Below are positions 14,153-55,398 of a DNA stretch of 56,007 nucleotides, piece by piece. Both the position numbers and the translations under genes were made by a program. The first letter of the stretch is position 1. Each line of letters opens with the position of its first letter. A model generated the notes under the pieces. The model ran no database searches. It was not told the DNA's origin and was given only the letters and a program-made list of their open reading frames with translations. The stretch spans positions 1 through 56,007 of the IMG/VR virus record IMGVR_UViG_3300042389_001858; one strand, given 5' to 3'. Source of the DNA: a virus.

Positions 14153-14226
14153 CGCAGGATAGAGAAATGGTATCTCACAAGGCCCATAACCTTGGGTTTC
14201 GGGTTCAACTCCCGATCCTGCTACCA
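14153..14226 (+). tRNA. tRNA-Met-type (anticodon CAT), with encoded CCA
   Basis: All four arms fold: acceptor 2-7/66-71, D stem GAGA/TCTC, anticodon stem CAAGG/CCTTG, T stem TCGGG/CCCGA with loop TTCAACT, discriminator A and CCA at 14224-14226. The anticodon loop is CCCATAA, so the anticodon is CAT (Met, or Ile if lysidine-modified). Odd points: C at position 33 where nearly all tRNAs have U; a C1.U72 mismatch; and A11:U24, an initiator-like purine-pyrimidine order. Only two of the three initiator G:C anticodon-stem pairs are present. It lies between the capsid gene and a terminator. Confidence 0.85.
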
Positions 14227-31633: not shown

Positions 31634-34396
31634 ATGCCCGCGCAATCGCAAATCTCCTCGGGCGGGGCCACGGTGTCGCCAGAGCTTTATTCCGGGCGGG
31701 TGGAGGTGATCAAGGCGAAAATCCTGGTGGACGAAGACAGCTTGCCGATCGCCACCAAGTTCGAGGTGAACAAGCGTTTCAACGGGCAGTATTTCGTGAA
31801 CGCGCGGTTCCGCAAGGCGGGGGCGCTGCCAAATGGGATTTCCTGGACCTCTGATGCCCAAGGGATTCGGTTTTTTGGCGTGCCGCAGCAGACTGGCACT
31901 TTCGAGGCGCTTTTCGAGGGGCCGTATCCGAATAATTTTAAGGGCGTGACGACAGAGGGAAATTATACTGTCGATCAATGCCATCCGCAGAGCCAGCCGG
32001 TGAGTCCTGGGGTGCAGACGGCATTGGTTTTTGGATGGATCGTGCGCTTTGTGGTGACGACCAAGAGCGCGAACAGCGTGAACTTCGGGACGGCTTGGAG
32101 GAATGTGTTGGCGAAGAGAAATCCCGCCTTGACGGCTTATCGGGAGGAGTGGGGTGGCGGTGGGGGCGGAAATTCTTCCGTGCCCTCGGCTCCGCAGAAT
32201 TTGGCAGCGGTTCCGCAGGATGGTGCGGCATTGATCACTTTCAATCTGCCGATCAGTGATGGCGGGTCGCCGATCACGGGCTATCAATATCAGGCCAGTC
32301 TCTCGGATGCACTTGGGCAGTGGACGGCTGGAACATTTGTGCCGCCTTCTGGGGCGACTCAGCCATTGGGAGGGCAGATTCCCGGATTGACCAATGGGCA
32401 ATCTTACACGATTCGTGTGCGCGCGGTGAACGCCGTGGGACCTGGACAGGCTTCGTCCGCGGTGACGGTGGTTCCCTCCGCATCGGTTTTTGCCACGATG
32501 CGGGTGGTAGGTAACGAGCCGTCGCTGGGGGCGTGGTCTATTCAAAATTCGGCGCAAATGGCGCGCCAGGGCGCGCCGGCGGGCTATAACTGGACGGCCG
32601 AGTTGGCGATTGCGGACCCGAACACGGCCAAATTCAAATTCGTGGTGGGCACAAACAATCTTTGGGACGATCCGAATACGCCGTTGGTGGAAAATTGGGG
32701 CGATAACGATCTCCCTGGCGCTAATGGCTACTATATCGGTGATCCGGGTGGTGCGGATATCAATTTCTCTGTGGCGGTCCCGGGCGCGATTGCTGGGCAG
32801 TATCGATTTTCCTTCAACGAGACCACCTATGCATGGACGGTCACGGCGGTGGGAGGTGGTGGGGGCGGTGGGGGCGGATCGAATATCGCGCCGCAAATTC
32901 AAGCGCCGAATCCGTGGTCGGTAAATGTCACCCCGCTGCAGCCATTTTCTTTGACTGTGACCGCGTCAGGCAGCCCTACGCCAACATTCACAGCCACTGG
33001 GCTGCCGACGGGTCTCTCGATTTCTTCGACAGGTGTGATTTCTGGCGCAGTCACCGGCACAAGCGGCACGGCCACGATCACCGCCACCAACTCCGCTGGA
33101 TCGGATTCGCGGGTGATTTCATTTGTTGTCACGGCCGGAATTCCGGCTATTGAAATCAGCTTGGGGGATTTCCCGGGCGGGCAACGAGGATTCCTAAAAA
33201 ATCCTTCCCCTGTGTCTGCGATTTTTGGGCAAGGTGGTATTAATGGGCGGTTCGATATTTGGCATGCCCGCACCTATCCAGGCTATATAGGACCAAGCAA
33301 GGCCTATTGGGAGCATGCGATTGCAATTCCAATTAATTACGCCTTATCGGGCGGAGCGCAGGTCGGGCAAGGCTTGGAGTTTAAGACCGATGCTTTGGGG
33401 AATTCGCCCTGGCGCCAATACGCTCTGCCTGTCGATGTGTTGTCGACTGGAGATTACAGCAGTCCGCTGGCTATTACGGCGCGATCAGGCGATGGGATTC
33501 CATTGGGACTGCTTCCATCCGATCCTGCGACGCCCAATCGCCTAAACGCGGCTTTGAATCCTCGTGGTGATTCTAGATTTAATTGGTGGACGGATGGGTT
33601 TGTCACTTCTGGCAATGCTTTTTGGACGACTGAAATTGATGCCTCGCGCGGCGAGGTGGCGGTCGCTGGCCGGATCGGCAGCAACCAAAGATCGACCGTT
33701 CAGACAGCGCTTACCGGGCCGGGAACGCTGACTTTTTGGTGGAAAATCTCTTCCCAGCCAAACATTGAGCGGATGCGTTTGTTACTCAATGGTGTAGAGA
33801 AATCAACAATCTCTGGTTCGACTAATTGGGCGCAGGGTTCGATCGATATCCCATTCGGGACCAATACAGTGAGATGGGACTACATCAAATCCTTCAGCGG
33901 CGGCACGGGATCCGATTCCGCTTGGTTGGACGATGTTGTCTTCACGCCGACTGGCACCGCCCCGCCCTCCGCGGTCGATGTTGTCGATGCGGAGTTCGTC
34001 ACGCTAAGGAGCGGATCTGTGATTTCGAATCAAATGGTGGTGGATTTGCGTTCTCAAATCACAAGGCCATATATTGTTAGTGTTCTTGATGGCGGTGCGT
34101 CCCCAAATCGGACGCTTGTGATTAATTTCACTCAAGACCCCGTCTTGGATGGATTTGGGAATTCCGCTATTAGATATTATGAGTATTCCACGGATGATGG
34201 TGTCACTTGGCGGGCCGCGTCGAATTATCCGAACGTCTCTCCATTTACCATCGATGAAATTTCCGCGAGGAATGGAGGGCCGCTTGTCGCTGGAGTGCAA
34301 TACCCGATAAAAATACGGACCGCCTTCAGTGCGCCGGTCGCTTCGGCTGTGGTTGTAAGTCGAGCGAGTAACGCTGTCCTTCCGACTTGGGCATGA
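31634..34396 (+). CDS. multidomain tail protein: FnIII, carbohydrate-binding-like and Ig-like, 920 aa
   Basis: Domains in order: beta-rich N-terminus (1-175); fibronectin III (about 182-285; SAPQNLAAVPQDG, SYTIRVRAVNAVGPGQASS); a starch-binding-like module (about 286-400; PSLGAWSIQNS, AKFKFVVGTNNLWDD); a Gly linker; a He_PIG Ig domain (about 415-500; ATGLPTGLSISSTGVISG); and a jelly-roll-like region (about 665-776; TLTFWWKISSQP, SAWLDDVVF). This looks like a receptor- or glycan-binding tail protein. Domain names are from pattern recognition. Confidence 0.7.
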   Translation: MPAQSQISSGGATVSPELYSGRVEVIKAKILVDEDSLPIATKFEVNKRFNGQYFVNARFRKAGALPNGISWTSDAQGIRFFGVPQQTGTFEALFEGPYPNNFKGVTTEGNYTVDQCHPQSQPVSPGVQTALVFGWIVRFVVTTKSANSVNFGTAWRNVLAKRNPALTAYREEWGGGGGGNSSVPSAPQNLAAVPQDGAALITFNLPISDGGSPITGYQYQASLSDALGQWTAGTFVPPSGATQPLGGQIPGLTNGQSYTIRVRAVNAVGPGQASSAVTVVPSASVFATMRVVGNEPSLGAWSIQNSAQMARQGAPAGYNWTAELAIADPNTAKFKFVVGTNNLWDDPNTPLVENWGDNDLPGANGYYIGDPGGADINFSVAVPGAIAGQYRFSFNETTYAWTVTAVGGGGGGGGGSNIAPQIQAPNPWSVNVTPLQPFSLTVTASGSPTPTFTATGLPTGLSISSTGVISGAVTGTSGTATITATNSAGSDSRVISFVVTAGIPAIEISLGDFPGGQRGFLKNPSPVSAIFGQGGINGRFDIWHARTYPGYIGPSKAYWEHAIAIPINYALSGGAQVGQGLEFKTDALGNSPWRQYALPVDVLSTGDYSSPLAITARSGDGIPLGLLPSDPATPNRLNAALNPRGDSRFNWWTDGFVTSGNAFWTTEIDASRGEVAVAGRIGSNQRSTVQTALTGPGTLTFWWKISSQPNIERMRLLLNGVEKSTISGSTNWAQGSIDIPFGTNTVRWDYIKSFSGGTGSDSAWLDDVVFTPTGTAPPSAVDVVDAEFVTLRSGSVISNQMVVDLRSQITRPYIVSVLDGGASPNRTLVINFTQDPVLDGFGNSAIRYYEYSTDDGVTWRAASNYPNVSPFTIDEISARNGGPLVAGVQYPIKIRTAFSAPVASAVVVSRASNAVLPTWA

Positions 34397-52113: not shown

Positions 52114-52281
52114 ATGCCCGCCGCAATGAGCAATTCACCCACCCCCTTTGTAGGAGTCAGAATCCCGGCGCCGCTTAGAAAAGCCGTGCGCCGCCGCGTC
52201 AAGGGCGGGGGGTATCGCACGATTTCGGAATACATTCGGGACTTGATTCGCCGCGACATCGCAAGGAGGGCCAAGCAATGA
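52114..52281 (+). CDS. ribbon-helix-helix protein, ParD/CopG-like, 55 aa
   Basis: FVGVRIPAPLRKAVRRRV (strand and helix A) and GGYRTISEYIRDLIRRDIAR (helix B) are a clear RHH pattern. It is very basic. Starts ATG 52114, three bases after the GCAAACATATT site. An AAGGAGGG SD for the next gene lies in its last codons, and the stop overlaps that start (ATGA). Divergent from the other RHH gene: possible switch or excision control. Confidence 0.75.
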   Translation: MPAAMSNSPTPFVGVRIPAPLRKAVRRRVKGGGYRTISEYIRDLIRRDIARRAKQ

Positions 52282-52532
52282 GATACTCGGTCCTCATGGC
52301 GGAGCGGCGCGGGGCGGCAACCATCGAGGAAGCCGAAAAAATCGTTGGCGGTTGCGGGATCCTCGGCCTGCTTCGCAAGGCGGGTTGGCTTGCGCCGAAG
52401 GTGCAGGGCAACCGGCTTACCCTTTTTGACTATGACGACTGCCTCGCCGCGTGGAAGCGCCTGTGCGCGGAGGGCATCGAATCCCTGCGGCGGGCGGCGC
52501 AGCAAAGGCCCGCTCGATCTCTCCGTCGTTAG
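52278..52532 (+). CDS. putative small winged-helix/excisionase-like protein, 84 aa
   Basis: Coupled to the RHH gene by ATGA with a good SD. TIEEAEKIVGGCGILGLLRK and GWLAPKVQGNRLTLFDYDDC read as helix-turn-helix with wing, similar in outline to AlpA/Xis-type proteins. Its last 116 nt lie opposite the 3' end of the integrase gene, so the two ORFs are antisense. Place beside int favours an excisionase or regulator. Confidence 0.55.
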   Translation: MRYSVLMAERRGAATIEEAEKIVGGCGILGLLRKAGWLAPKVQGNRLTLFDYDDCLAAWKRLCAEGIESLRRAAQQRPARSLRR

Positions 52533-53559
52533 GCAGCAACTTGGCATAATGGCGTTCAACCACCCTCACCCCGTCCCCCATCCAATGCGCGATCTTGTAG
52601 ATAGAGACACCGGCACTCGCCAACAGCGAGGCAAAGGTATGCCGCATGGTGTGGGGGGTGATCCAAGCGCATCCCTGCGCGGCCATGTAGTTGCTGAACG
52701 AGGTGCCGAAGTCATATCTGTAAATGTTTTTCCTGCGGGCGGGGATGTGGGGCGCGAGCATATAGTCCGCAGGCGGCGGCATTCCGAATCCGTTCTGGTC
52801 GTCACGCAAGAAGTCCCGGAAGGCGGCGGTCAGGGGGATGGACCTCTCCTGTCGGTCCTTGAATTGGATGCCTTCGTGTTTGCGCAGGTGGAGGTGCCCC
52901 GCCGCGAGGTCGAACCATCCCGCGCGGCTTTCCACAATTTCATTGAAGCGCAGTCCCGCGTGGAAGCCGCAGTAGAGAATGTATTTCATCTCGCGGCTCG
53001 GCGCGTTGGCGATCAGGTGGTCGCGCTGGGCAGGGGCCGCGAAAAACTTCCGCGCCGCCGGAGCGGGGGCGCGAATCCTTCCGGGGGCGCGCTTGGCGGT
53101 GAGCGGCAGGACGGGATTCGAGGGGCACAGCCGCTCCACGGATTTCGCCCATCCGAAAAACCCTTGGATTGTCATCAAGTTTCCATAGGCGGTGCTTTCG
53201 CTCACCTCCTGCAGGCGCTTCGCGTGCCAGGCGCGAAGGTGTTCGGTGCGAACCTCGCGCGGGCGAACGCGCCCCATCTCCCTTGCCCAGCGGGTGAGGA
53301 AGTATCCCTTGGAACGCTCGGTGCTGAGCGTCCAGTCGCCCGTTTCCACGCAATACTTCACATAGCGCGCGGCCACATGGGCGATCAGCTCGCCGCTTTC
53401 GAAAGAGGGGCTGTCGCGCAACTCGGCGGCCCGCTCCATCGCCACGGAGAGGTTCTCCGTTTCGAGCGACACGCAGTTCCTCTTGCCGGAAATCATTTGG
53501 CTGAACCAATACAAATTCCCGTTGCGGTAGATTCCCTTCATTTCGGGGGGGCGGGCCAT
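52417..53559 (-). CDS. int: tyrosine site-specific integrase, 380 aa
   Basis: The N-terminal core-binding part ends with NLMTIQGFFGWAKSV. The catalytic domain shows Arg I in HAGLRFNEIV, the HTMRHTF box (HxxR), HWMGDGV and the nucleophile in VERHYAKLL. Its start lies beside paired arm-type repeats and a tRNA-Asp fragment, so it likely integrates into a tRNA-Asp gene and may repress itself. Transcription is against the late genes. C-terminus is slightly long. Confidence 0.95.
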   Translation of the reverse strand: MARPPEMKGIYRNGNLYWFSQMISGKRNCVSLETENLSVAMERAAELRDSPSFESGELIAHVAARYVKYCVETGDWTLSTERSKGYFLTRWAREMGRVRPREVRTEHLRAWHAKRLQEVSESTAYGNLMTIQGFFGWAKSVERLCPSNPVLPLTAKRAPGRIRAPAPAARKFFAAPAQRDHLIANAPSREMKYILYCGFHAGLRFNEIVESRAGWFDLAAGHLHLRKHEGIQFKDRQERSIPLTAAFRDFLRDDQNGFGMPPPADYMLAPHIPARRKNIYRYDFGTSFSNYMAAQGCAWITPHTMRHTFASLLASAGVSIYKIAHWMGDGVRVVERHYAKLLPNDGEIERAFAAPPAAGIRCPPRTGASTRRGSRHSQKG

Positions 53560-53723
53560 GGGTCATTTTATAGCAAAATTTTTATAGCAAATCCAATTTT
53601 TACTTGGGGCGACATGAACCGACATGGACAAGACCCGGAGTGCGAAACCGGACATTTTTCGCACGCGCGCCGCACCTATCGCGGCGAACCAATGCCCCGC
53701 AGAGCCACTATTCATGCGGTTCC

Positions 53724-53755
53724 GCGGGCGACACGCCCGCTCCGAAAAGGAGCGG
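53724..53755. repeat. tandem hairpins beside the tRNA fragment
   Basis: GCGGGCG/CGCCCGC (53724-53740, ACA loop) and CCGCTCC/GGAGCGG (53737-53743/53749-53755, GAAAA loop) are overlapping, mutually exclusive hairpins just 3' of the tRNA-like end on its strand. In the host they may be the tRNA terminator carried with the att core. Confidence 0.6.
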
Positions 53756-53794
53756 AGCCTACGGGGCTCGAACCCGCAACCTCTGCCGTGACAG
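53753..53794 (-). pseudogene. 3' fragment of tRNA-Asp(GTC), probable att core
   Basis: On the minus strand the sequence has anticodon loop CTGTCAC, stem GGCAG, T arm GCGGG-TTCGAGC-CCCGT, acceptor strand AGGCTCC and G discriminator. The 5' half is absent (upstream is GCCATGAA). A 3' tRNA fragment next to int is the usual identity block that rebuilds the host tRNA after integration. CCA is not encoded. Confidence 0.85.
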
Positions 53795-53852
53795 TTCATG
53801 GCTTGTGTAGGCTTTATAGCAAAAAAAATATAGCAAAATCGGAGGTGCGGGC

Positions 53853-54527
53853 GTGAGCACCTACGAAGATCATGTGGCCCGCCAGCGCACGGGATACTTA
53901 GTGGCTTATGAGGAGTGGGAGGCCTCATTGAAGCCCGAGGAGCGCGCCCTTTTGGGGCGGGCTGCCGCCCCTGAATTGGAGGATCACAAGGCGCATTCAA
54001 CCAAGAGGGTGGTGCTGGGGGTTGTAGGCGACGCGGCGGAGCGGAGCGCGGCGAGCTACATCCCGGATTTTTCAGAAATGCTCGACAGCGATCCTGCGCT
54101 GCTTGCTGAGCGCGCGGGCGTGTCGCTGAAGCAGGCGGAGGCGATTTTTGTTTTCATGCAGGAGAGGATCGAGCGGGAAAGCGCGGCGCGGGAGTCGCGG
54201 GCGATTGTCTCGATCGCGGCGGCGTTTTTAAAGGGGGCGAATTCGAAGTTGCTGGCGGCGGGATTGGCCTATGCCTCGGACCTCGCGCTAACCAACGGGC
54301 TGGGGACGATGCAGGATTGGGCGCGGGAGAATGGGGTAAGCCGCGCGGCAGTATCGAAAGTAGCAAAATTTTGGCAGCGCCAACTGGGGCTGCCTGCGGG
54401 GAGTCACATGAGGGACGCAGAAAAATGTCGGGCTTACAGCGAGGCCCAACAAAAGAAACACTGGAGAAAACAAAAGGTCGGAGTCTGCGCTGAGGCTGCG
54501 GCTGGTGAGGAAGAAACAAATCTATGA
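53853..54527 (+). CDS. putative DNA-binding early protein, 224 aa, GTG start
   Basis: GTG start with a GGAGG SD. The middle is helical (AERAGVSLKQAEAIFVFMQ, a helix-turn-helix-like segment) and a second HTH-like part is at about 150-185 (MQDWARENGVSRAAVSKVAK). Basic C-terminus. Possibly a replication initiator-like or regulatory protein. First gene of a right-going early operon; the stop overlaps the next start. Confidence 0.55.
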   Translation: MSTYEDHVARQRTGYLVAYEEWEASLKPEERALLGRAAAPELEDHKAHSTKRVVLGVVGDAAERSAASYIPDFSEMLDSDPALLAERAGVSLKQAEAIFVFMQERIERESAARESRAIVSIAAAFLKGANSKLLAAGLAYASDLALTNGLGTMQDWARENGVSRAAVSKVAKFWQRQLGLPAGSHMRDAEKCRAYSEAQQKKHWRKQKVGVCAEAAAGEEETNL

Positions 54528-54709
54528 GAAAAACGCTTGCCTTTTTGGCAATCTTAACAGGGGTTTTCGCCGCCCTGAAATTGGCGAACTGGATTTCGTG
54601 GAGCTGGTGGTGGGTAGCGGCTCCGGTGTGGGGGCCTTTCGCCTTTGCGGCGGGATTCGTCATGTTCGTGCTGCTGATGACTTCAGTAAGGGGCGGAGGT
54701 GCGAAATGA
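54524..54709 (+). CDS. small membrane protein, 61 aa
   Basis: Two hydrophobic segments (LAFLAILTGVFAALKLA and WWWVAAPVWGPFAFAAGFV) joined by a short loop. ATGA overlap with both neighbours. Phage early membrane proteins often act in exclusion or takeover, but nothing specific can be said. Confidence 0.6.
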   Translation: MRKTLAFLAILTGVFAALKLANWISWSWWWVAAPVWGPFAFAAGFVMFVLLMTSVRGGGAK

Positions 54710-55398
54710 GCAAGGCGCAAGACGCAGCTTACGAACTGTGGGAACTAACGCTCTCGATTTCGGCCAACGGCGAAAACGAGGACGCCGCGAAGGCGCGCTG
54801 GACGCCTACAGGGCTGGATTTGCCAGAGACGACTACGCTGGAAAATGTGAAGGAAATCCTTCGGGCCTTCAAAGCGTGGGAGACGACGGGAACTGTGGCG
54901 CTGGCGGACCTCTTGGATTATGTCAAGCGCCAAGGCTGGGAGAAGGAAGTGGAGCAATACCTGGCTCAATTGGAATTCGACCTTTCGCAGGTGCGGCGGG
55001 CGCAAGTGGTGGGCGAGGTGCCGAGGGCGCTGCGGCATCCGGCGCTGAGCGCGGAGCATTACTGGGTCGTTTCCTCGCTGGACAGAGAAGGGCAGACGAA
55101 GTGGCTTGCATCCGCCGTCAAGCACAAGCTTACCGGCTTTGAATTGAAGCGCTCCATCGAGGCAGGGAAGGTGCTTCGCAAGGAGCAGATCGAAATGCTC
55201 TCGGGCCAGAACTCGGGGATTCTCACCTACCAAGGGATCCTCACGGATTGGAAGCGCTGGACGGCGAAGGTGGGCGGGGATGATGGAATTCTCGCATGGC
55301 CACCGCAGGCGCAGGATCGCTGGCTGGAGGATACGAGGCCGATCGTGGAGCTTCGAGAGCGCGTGCTGGAACGGCGCGGAGAGGAGGTGGCGAAATGA
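54706..55398 (+). CDS. early operon protein, 230 aa
   Basis: Helical charged protein: YELWELTLSISANGENEDAA, then SAEHYWVVSSLDREGQTKWL and FELKRSIEAGKVLRKEQIEM. The mid-part (Trp-rich helix, KWLASAVKHKLTGFELKRSI) resembles phage proteins of the ParB/replication-linked type, but I cannot name a family. GGAGG SD before the ATG. Coupled to both neighbours. Confidence 0.6.
   Translation: MSKAQDAAYELWELTLSISANGENEDAAKARWTPTGLDLPETTTLENVKEILRAFKAWETTGTVALADLLDYVKRQGWEKEVEQYLAQLEFDLSQVRRAQVVGEVPRALRHPALSAEHYWVVSSLDREGQTKWLASAVKHKLTGFELKRSIEAGKVLRKEQIEMLSGQNSGILTYQGILTDWKRWTAKVGGDDGILAWPPQAQDRWLEDTRPIVELRERVLERRGEEVAK

Follow-up and report, generated by a model that had tools for sequence, protein, structure and literature searches.

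A probable phage attP built on the 3' part of tRNA-Asp(GTC), with its integration module, in an uncultivated virus linked to Verrucomicrobiota

The window, that is, the whole analysed stretch of 56,007 nucleotides of viral DNA, carries a tyrosine integrase gene (int) with a 42-nt tRNA-derived block upstream of it and a pair of short repeats on each side of this block. Two small genes lie at the 3' end of int and two phage genes follow to the right. The features of this region, and two found elsewhere in the window, are:

14153-14226 (left gene region): complete tRNA-Met(CAT), phage-encoded
31634-34396: 920-aa protein with fibronectin type III and starch-binding (CBM_20) domains
52114..52281, + strand: 55-aa ribbon-helix-helix-like protein (RHH_1, E 0.0011, just below the Pfam cut-off)
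52278..52532, + strand: 84-aa protein, candidate excisionase (RDF), convergent with int and overlapping its 3' end
52417..53559, - strand: tyrosine integrase, 380 aa (PF00589, E 1.4e-11; phrog_1 integrase, E 6.6e-33)
53569..53591, + strand: putative P'-arm pair, two copies of TATAGCAAA with a 14-bp period, directly upstream of int
53610..53626, + strand: two CGACATG repeats 10 bp apart, possible excisionase or accessory-factor sites (weak)
53753..53794, - strand: probable attP common core CTGTCACGGCAGAGGTTGCGGGTTCGAGCCCCGTAGGCTCCG, 42 nt, 3' part of tRNA-Asp(GTC), with an exact match in 14 Verrucomicrobiota loci
53788..53794, - strand: anticodon loop CTGTCAC, presumed 7-bp strand-exchange (overlap) region; tRNA identity starts exactly there
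53815..53837, + strand: putative P-arm pair, two copies of TATAGCAAA with a 14-bp period, 20 bp from the anticodon loop, an equal distance being found in the related contigs G004 and G008
53853..54527, + strand: phage gene right of attP, possible helix-turn-helix protein (weak LacI-type HTH match)
54706..55398, + strand: conserved phage gene right of attP, with 40-79% identical homologues in G001, G002, G004, G008 and G011

The catalytic residues of the integrase were assigned by motif (R204, K234, H303, R306, H325 and Y338); no Pfam arm-binding domain was matched in the protein, and a comparison with PDB sequences gave no match. It has one partial match only in 50,697 phage records, and no close DNA relatives of the window were found in phage records. 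Short peptide patterns of the integrase recovered no relatives in IMG/VR, where a search with the portal protein yielded 18 related loci. A sigma-70-type promoter for int was looked for and not found.

The 84-aa protein is quite likely the excisionase of the system, a best guess from its location, its size and its co-occurrence with int; its homologues adjoin the integrase in twelve loci. The AlphaFold2 model has a winged-helix-like fold (helix-helix-wing-helix, mean pLDDT 81), and its structural matches, mostly MerR-like DNA-binding domains, are weak and within the common-fold background (Foldseek E no better than 0.14; Z not above 6.6). The match to Xis of mycobacteriophage Pukovnik (Z 5.0, rmsd 2.6, 52 residues, 19% identity) is likewise not above background. 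Searches against Pfam, PHROGs and NCBIfam excisionase models gave no match of note. Excisionases are too diverse for a missing family match to exclude this function. The gene for the 55-aa protein sits directly before that of the candidate excisionase.

In the core, tRNA-Asp(GTC) is represented from its anticodon loop (7 nt) through the discriminator base. A first-pass annotation had described a 42-nt 3' block of this tRNA close to int and without its 5' half, and this was confirmed at 53753-53794 on the minus strand; ARAGORN calls no tRNA at these positions, so the 5' half is absent from the core in the window. An Rfam search at attP returned nothing, even with E up to 1. The exact 42-mer gave no match in IMG/VR and was found in 14 stretches of bacterial genomes (GTDB genome contigs), all of them from Verrucomicrobiota. 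Thirteen of these matches lie inside complete tRNA-Asp(GTC) genes, and the remaining one (L015) is another fragment. An exact match over 42 nt lies far outside what chance would give. The hairpins that follow the block, which had been proposed as a further search handle, were not found beside bacterial tRNA-Asp genes, a short motif in L007 excepted, and are phage sequence. Their folding energy between core and int is not unusual (z -1.74) and no terminators beyond chance were found there; therefore, no special role is assigned to them. Between the tRNA block and int, the motif ACCGCWTRAATA occurs at 53708 (minus strand) in the window and also at L007 3257, L079 2693 and L080 1333. In L007 it stands just after a tRNA-Asp and no integrase is present, which may be the remnant of an old integration.

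Copies of TATAGCAAA start at 53569, 53583, 53815 and 53829, and there are no others in the 56 kb on either strand; 0.22 copies would be expected in the whole window. The four copies form two pairs, each with a 14-bp period, that bracket the core, and all lie inside the interval 53569-53838 of the first-pass annotation, which does not mention them. The pairs are putative arm-type sites of a lambda-type bivalent integrase, and their placement matches that of such sites around a phage attP. An identical 8-bp pair at a 13-14-bp period is present in 15 of 22 regions upstream of homologous int genes, compared with 0.3 expected from shuffles; the exact arm-pair pattern of the window gave no match in IMG/VR.

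These arms bear on whether the block might instead be a prophage end (attL or attR), with host chromosome on one flank and the tRNA fragment as a displaced attR copy. An attR does show a displaced 3' tRNA fragment, as does L015 from the MAG nzgw610. However, a prophage end would keep one phage arm only, whereas arm-type repeats flank the core on both sides here, which points to attP. The genes to the right also speak against a prophage end, as they are kept at the same place in related phages. Genes right of 53853 lying beside a bacterial tRNA-Asp had been named as the observation that would overturn attP; in the 14 bacterial loci this did not occur. We therefore regard a prophage end as very improbable, and the earlier preference for attP is supported by a core and two arms that run uninterrupted between phage genes on either side.

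The related phage contigs place this region in a wider context. Homologues of the gene at 53853-54527 (42-63% identity) stand at the same place in G001, G002, G004, G008 and G011, and the right-hand genes are followed by a DnaG-type primase in G001 and G004 (in G004 by reading of the sequence). A different tyrosine integrase replaces that of the window in G001, and G001 and G002 share an identical attP; thus, the right-hand genes are part of the phage backbone, and it is the integrase-attP cassette that changes. In total, two of the five contigs that keep the right-hand genes have an integrase different from the window's. The integrases of G004 and G008 are 52-53% identical to the window's, with gene order conserved. 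Both have a core formed by the 3' part of tRNA-Val(GAC) and arm pairs of the sequence TGTNACA, and 10-bp-phased repeats occur at the position matching the CGACATG repeats, which is weak evidence. On the P' side, the distance from the start of the pair to the anticodon loop is 196 bp in the window versus 85 bp in both G004 and G008, a point that counts against the attP explanation. In G001 and G002, the tRNA 3' block has a loop resembling a CAT anticodon and the pairs read GTGTAACA; this block (L048 2880-2930 in G001, and also in G002) is reversed in orientation relative to int.

The same contigs help to weigh the possibility that the 42-nt block plays no part in integration and is either left over by chance or derived from a broken tRNA gene of the phage. 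One complete tRNA gene, that of tRNA-Met at 14153, shows that phage tRNA genes exist in the window, but the block starts exactly at the anticodon loop and lies between paired repeats, and in relatives a 3' block of tRNA-Val or of a tRNA with a CAT anticodon-like loop takes the same place. This possibility is thus extremely improbable. In eight loci with a tRNA-Val fragment beside a homologous integrase, identity to the tRNA starts with the 7 nt of the anticodon loop (TTGACAC), no more than one additional base being shared. Since tRNA identity starts there in these loci, and at CTGTCAC in the window, strand exchange presumably occurs in the anticodon loop. Homologous integrases also occur with a complete tRNA-Val whose 5' end points toward int (L067, L068 and L073); these elements may carry the 5' half instead, and a model based on the 3' half does not explain them.

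We conclude, with a probability of about 0.93, that a temperate tailed phage has its attP and integration module in this region, and that its host is a Verrucomicrobiota bacterium of the Chthoniobacterales type. In the proposed reaction, the N-terminal domain of the integrase would bind the paired TATAGCAAA arm sites and its core domains the anticodon stem-loop sequence, and strand exchange would span the 7 bp of the anticodon loop in the host gene for tRNA-Asp(GTC). As attP supplies the remainder of the tRNA, the 5' half in the host chromosome would gain an identical phage-borne 3' half. The int end (attL) would thus hold a restored tRNA gene, and the original 3' half of the host would be displaced to the far end (attR). 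In silico, a simulated attL (host 5' half plus phage core) gave tRNA-Asp for all five host tRNA-Asp genes tested, and the simulated attR gave no tRNA for any of these five hosts. The P'-arm pair abuts int, so that integrase bound there would probably also repress int.

A different outcome is expected in tRNA-dependent lysogeny, in which the host tRNA is destroyed on integration and its function passes to a phage-encoded tRNA; phage and host share a core of about 10 bp and the tRNA is not restored (PMC10865867). The crossover lies at the anticodon loop there too (PMC10865867). Nevertheless, the 42-nt common core of the window rebuilds tRNA-Asp in silico, which argues for the ordinary tRNA-restoring mode. 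Furthermore, the sole phage tRNA in the 56-kb window is tRNA-Met rather than tRNA-Asp, a count that covers this linear fragment, since the two longest relatives measure 95-97 kb with attP near 60 kb and approximately 40 kb of genome may therefore lie beyond it. We give tRNA-dependent lysogeny a minimal probability and retain the tRNA-restoring attP. 

Integration of the lambda type into the anticodon loop of a tRNA gene is well established; the arrangement is of this well-known kind, and the phage group is poorly known. The attP sites of mycobacteriophages have pairs of arm-type sites flanking 30-45-bp cores (PMC10865867). Those of Boilgate and Omega (PMC10865867) resemble the window in having a tRNA 3'-half core, an attL that rebuilds the tRNA, paired arms on both sides and an adjacent int, and they differ from it in an unrelated host phylum and another arm-site sequence. 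The anticodon loop is also the class A crossover site of Islander (PMC4383910), and class A tRNA-gene islands (PMC4383910; Williams 2002) share with the window the displaced 3' tRNA fragment and the anticodon-loop crossover; the islands are integrated, whereas the window holds a phage attP. In the KplE1 IntS/TorI module, the att region overlaps the int promoter, which leads to integrase autoregulation (PMC2951348). The att region of the window similarly overlaps the int promoter region, and autoregulation would be expected by analogy. Unlike in KplE1, the candidate excisionase gene of the window runs toward int and overlaps the 3' end of int.

An integrated element with a similar cassette was found in nzgw610 (L094 1541-10367). 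Here, a complete tRNA-Asp precedes an arm pair of AAGTGTTACA, a homologous integrase (50% identity to that of the window) and a homologue of the 84-aa protein (59%). A UbiD-like gene lies on the other side of the tRNA-Asp (by reading of the sequence), the integrase has a TrbI-like conjugation gene downstream of it, and no phage genes were seen in the element. The 3' fragment of tRNA-Asp on a separate contig of the same MAG (L015) is consistent with the displaced attR copy of this element. The element therefore resembles the window in its homologous integrase and small protein, its tRNA-Asp target and its paired arm sites, and differs in its conjugation gene, its arm motif and the fact that no phage genes were seen. 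It is distinct from the window phage but places a member of the same integrase family at tRNA-Asp. An 855-aa helicase-like protein (ResIII, DEAD and Helicase_C_2 domains) is encoded near the displaced fragment, at L015 3966-6533.

The titles of the records that contain the 42-mer name Verrucomicrobia or Verrucomicrobiota, Chthoniobacterales, Spartobacteria or Chthoniobacter flavus. With up to three mismatches, the block is present in 154 of 213 genomes of one order; this 3' part is thus conserved order-wide and names a lineage, not a species. The search of bacterial tRNA-Asp genes that the first-pass annotation had suggested for naming the host accordingly yielded the lineage (Verrucomicrobiota, Chthoniobacterales type) and no species. 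We infer the host to be a Chthoniobacterales-type member of Verrucomicrobiota, to order level only. The titles of MAG records and a single tRNA are the basis for this, and a portal protein within the order supports it weakly. This portal, the nearest among the 213 genomes (58% identity), lies on an 11-kb contig without an integration module. No integrated copy of the window phage was found in the 213 genomes, in which the best integrase identity is 55%.

Tentatively, and at slightly less than even odds, one integration cassette may be common to verrucomicrobial phages and conjugative-type elements. It would consist of a tyrosine integrase, a convergent member of a previously unnamed winged-helix excisionase family and an anticodon-loop attP, with the tRNA target (Asp, Val and others) and the paired arm sequence changing together between relatives. 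The relatives form a natural series in which one integrase family has varied tRNA targets and arm sites, useful for the question of how targets change. From sequence alone, an uncultivated phage whose longest relatives reach about 95 kb can be recognised as probably temperate and be given a host lineage. Integration vectors could be developed from the attP-int cassette for this phylum, in which genetic tools are few.

Two further observations concern the left part of the window. A 210-aa ORF on the same strand as tRNA-Met(CAT) starts 14 bases into this tRNA. The 920-aa protein encoded at 31634-34396 is possibly a tail or adhesion protein.
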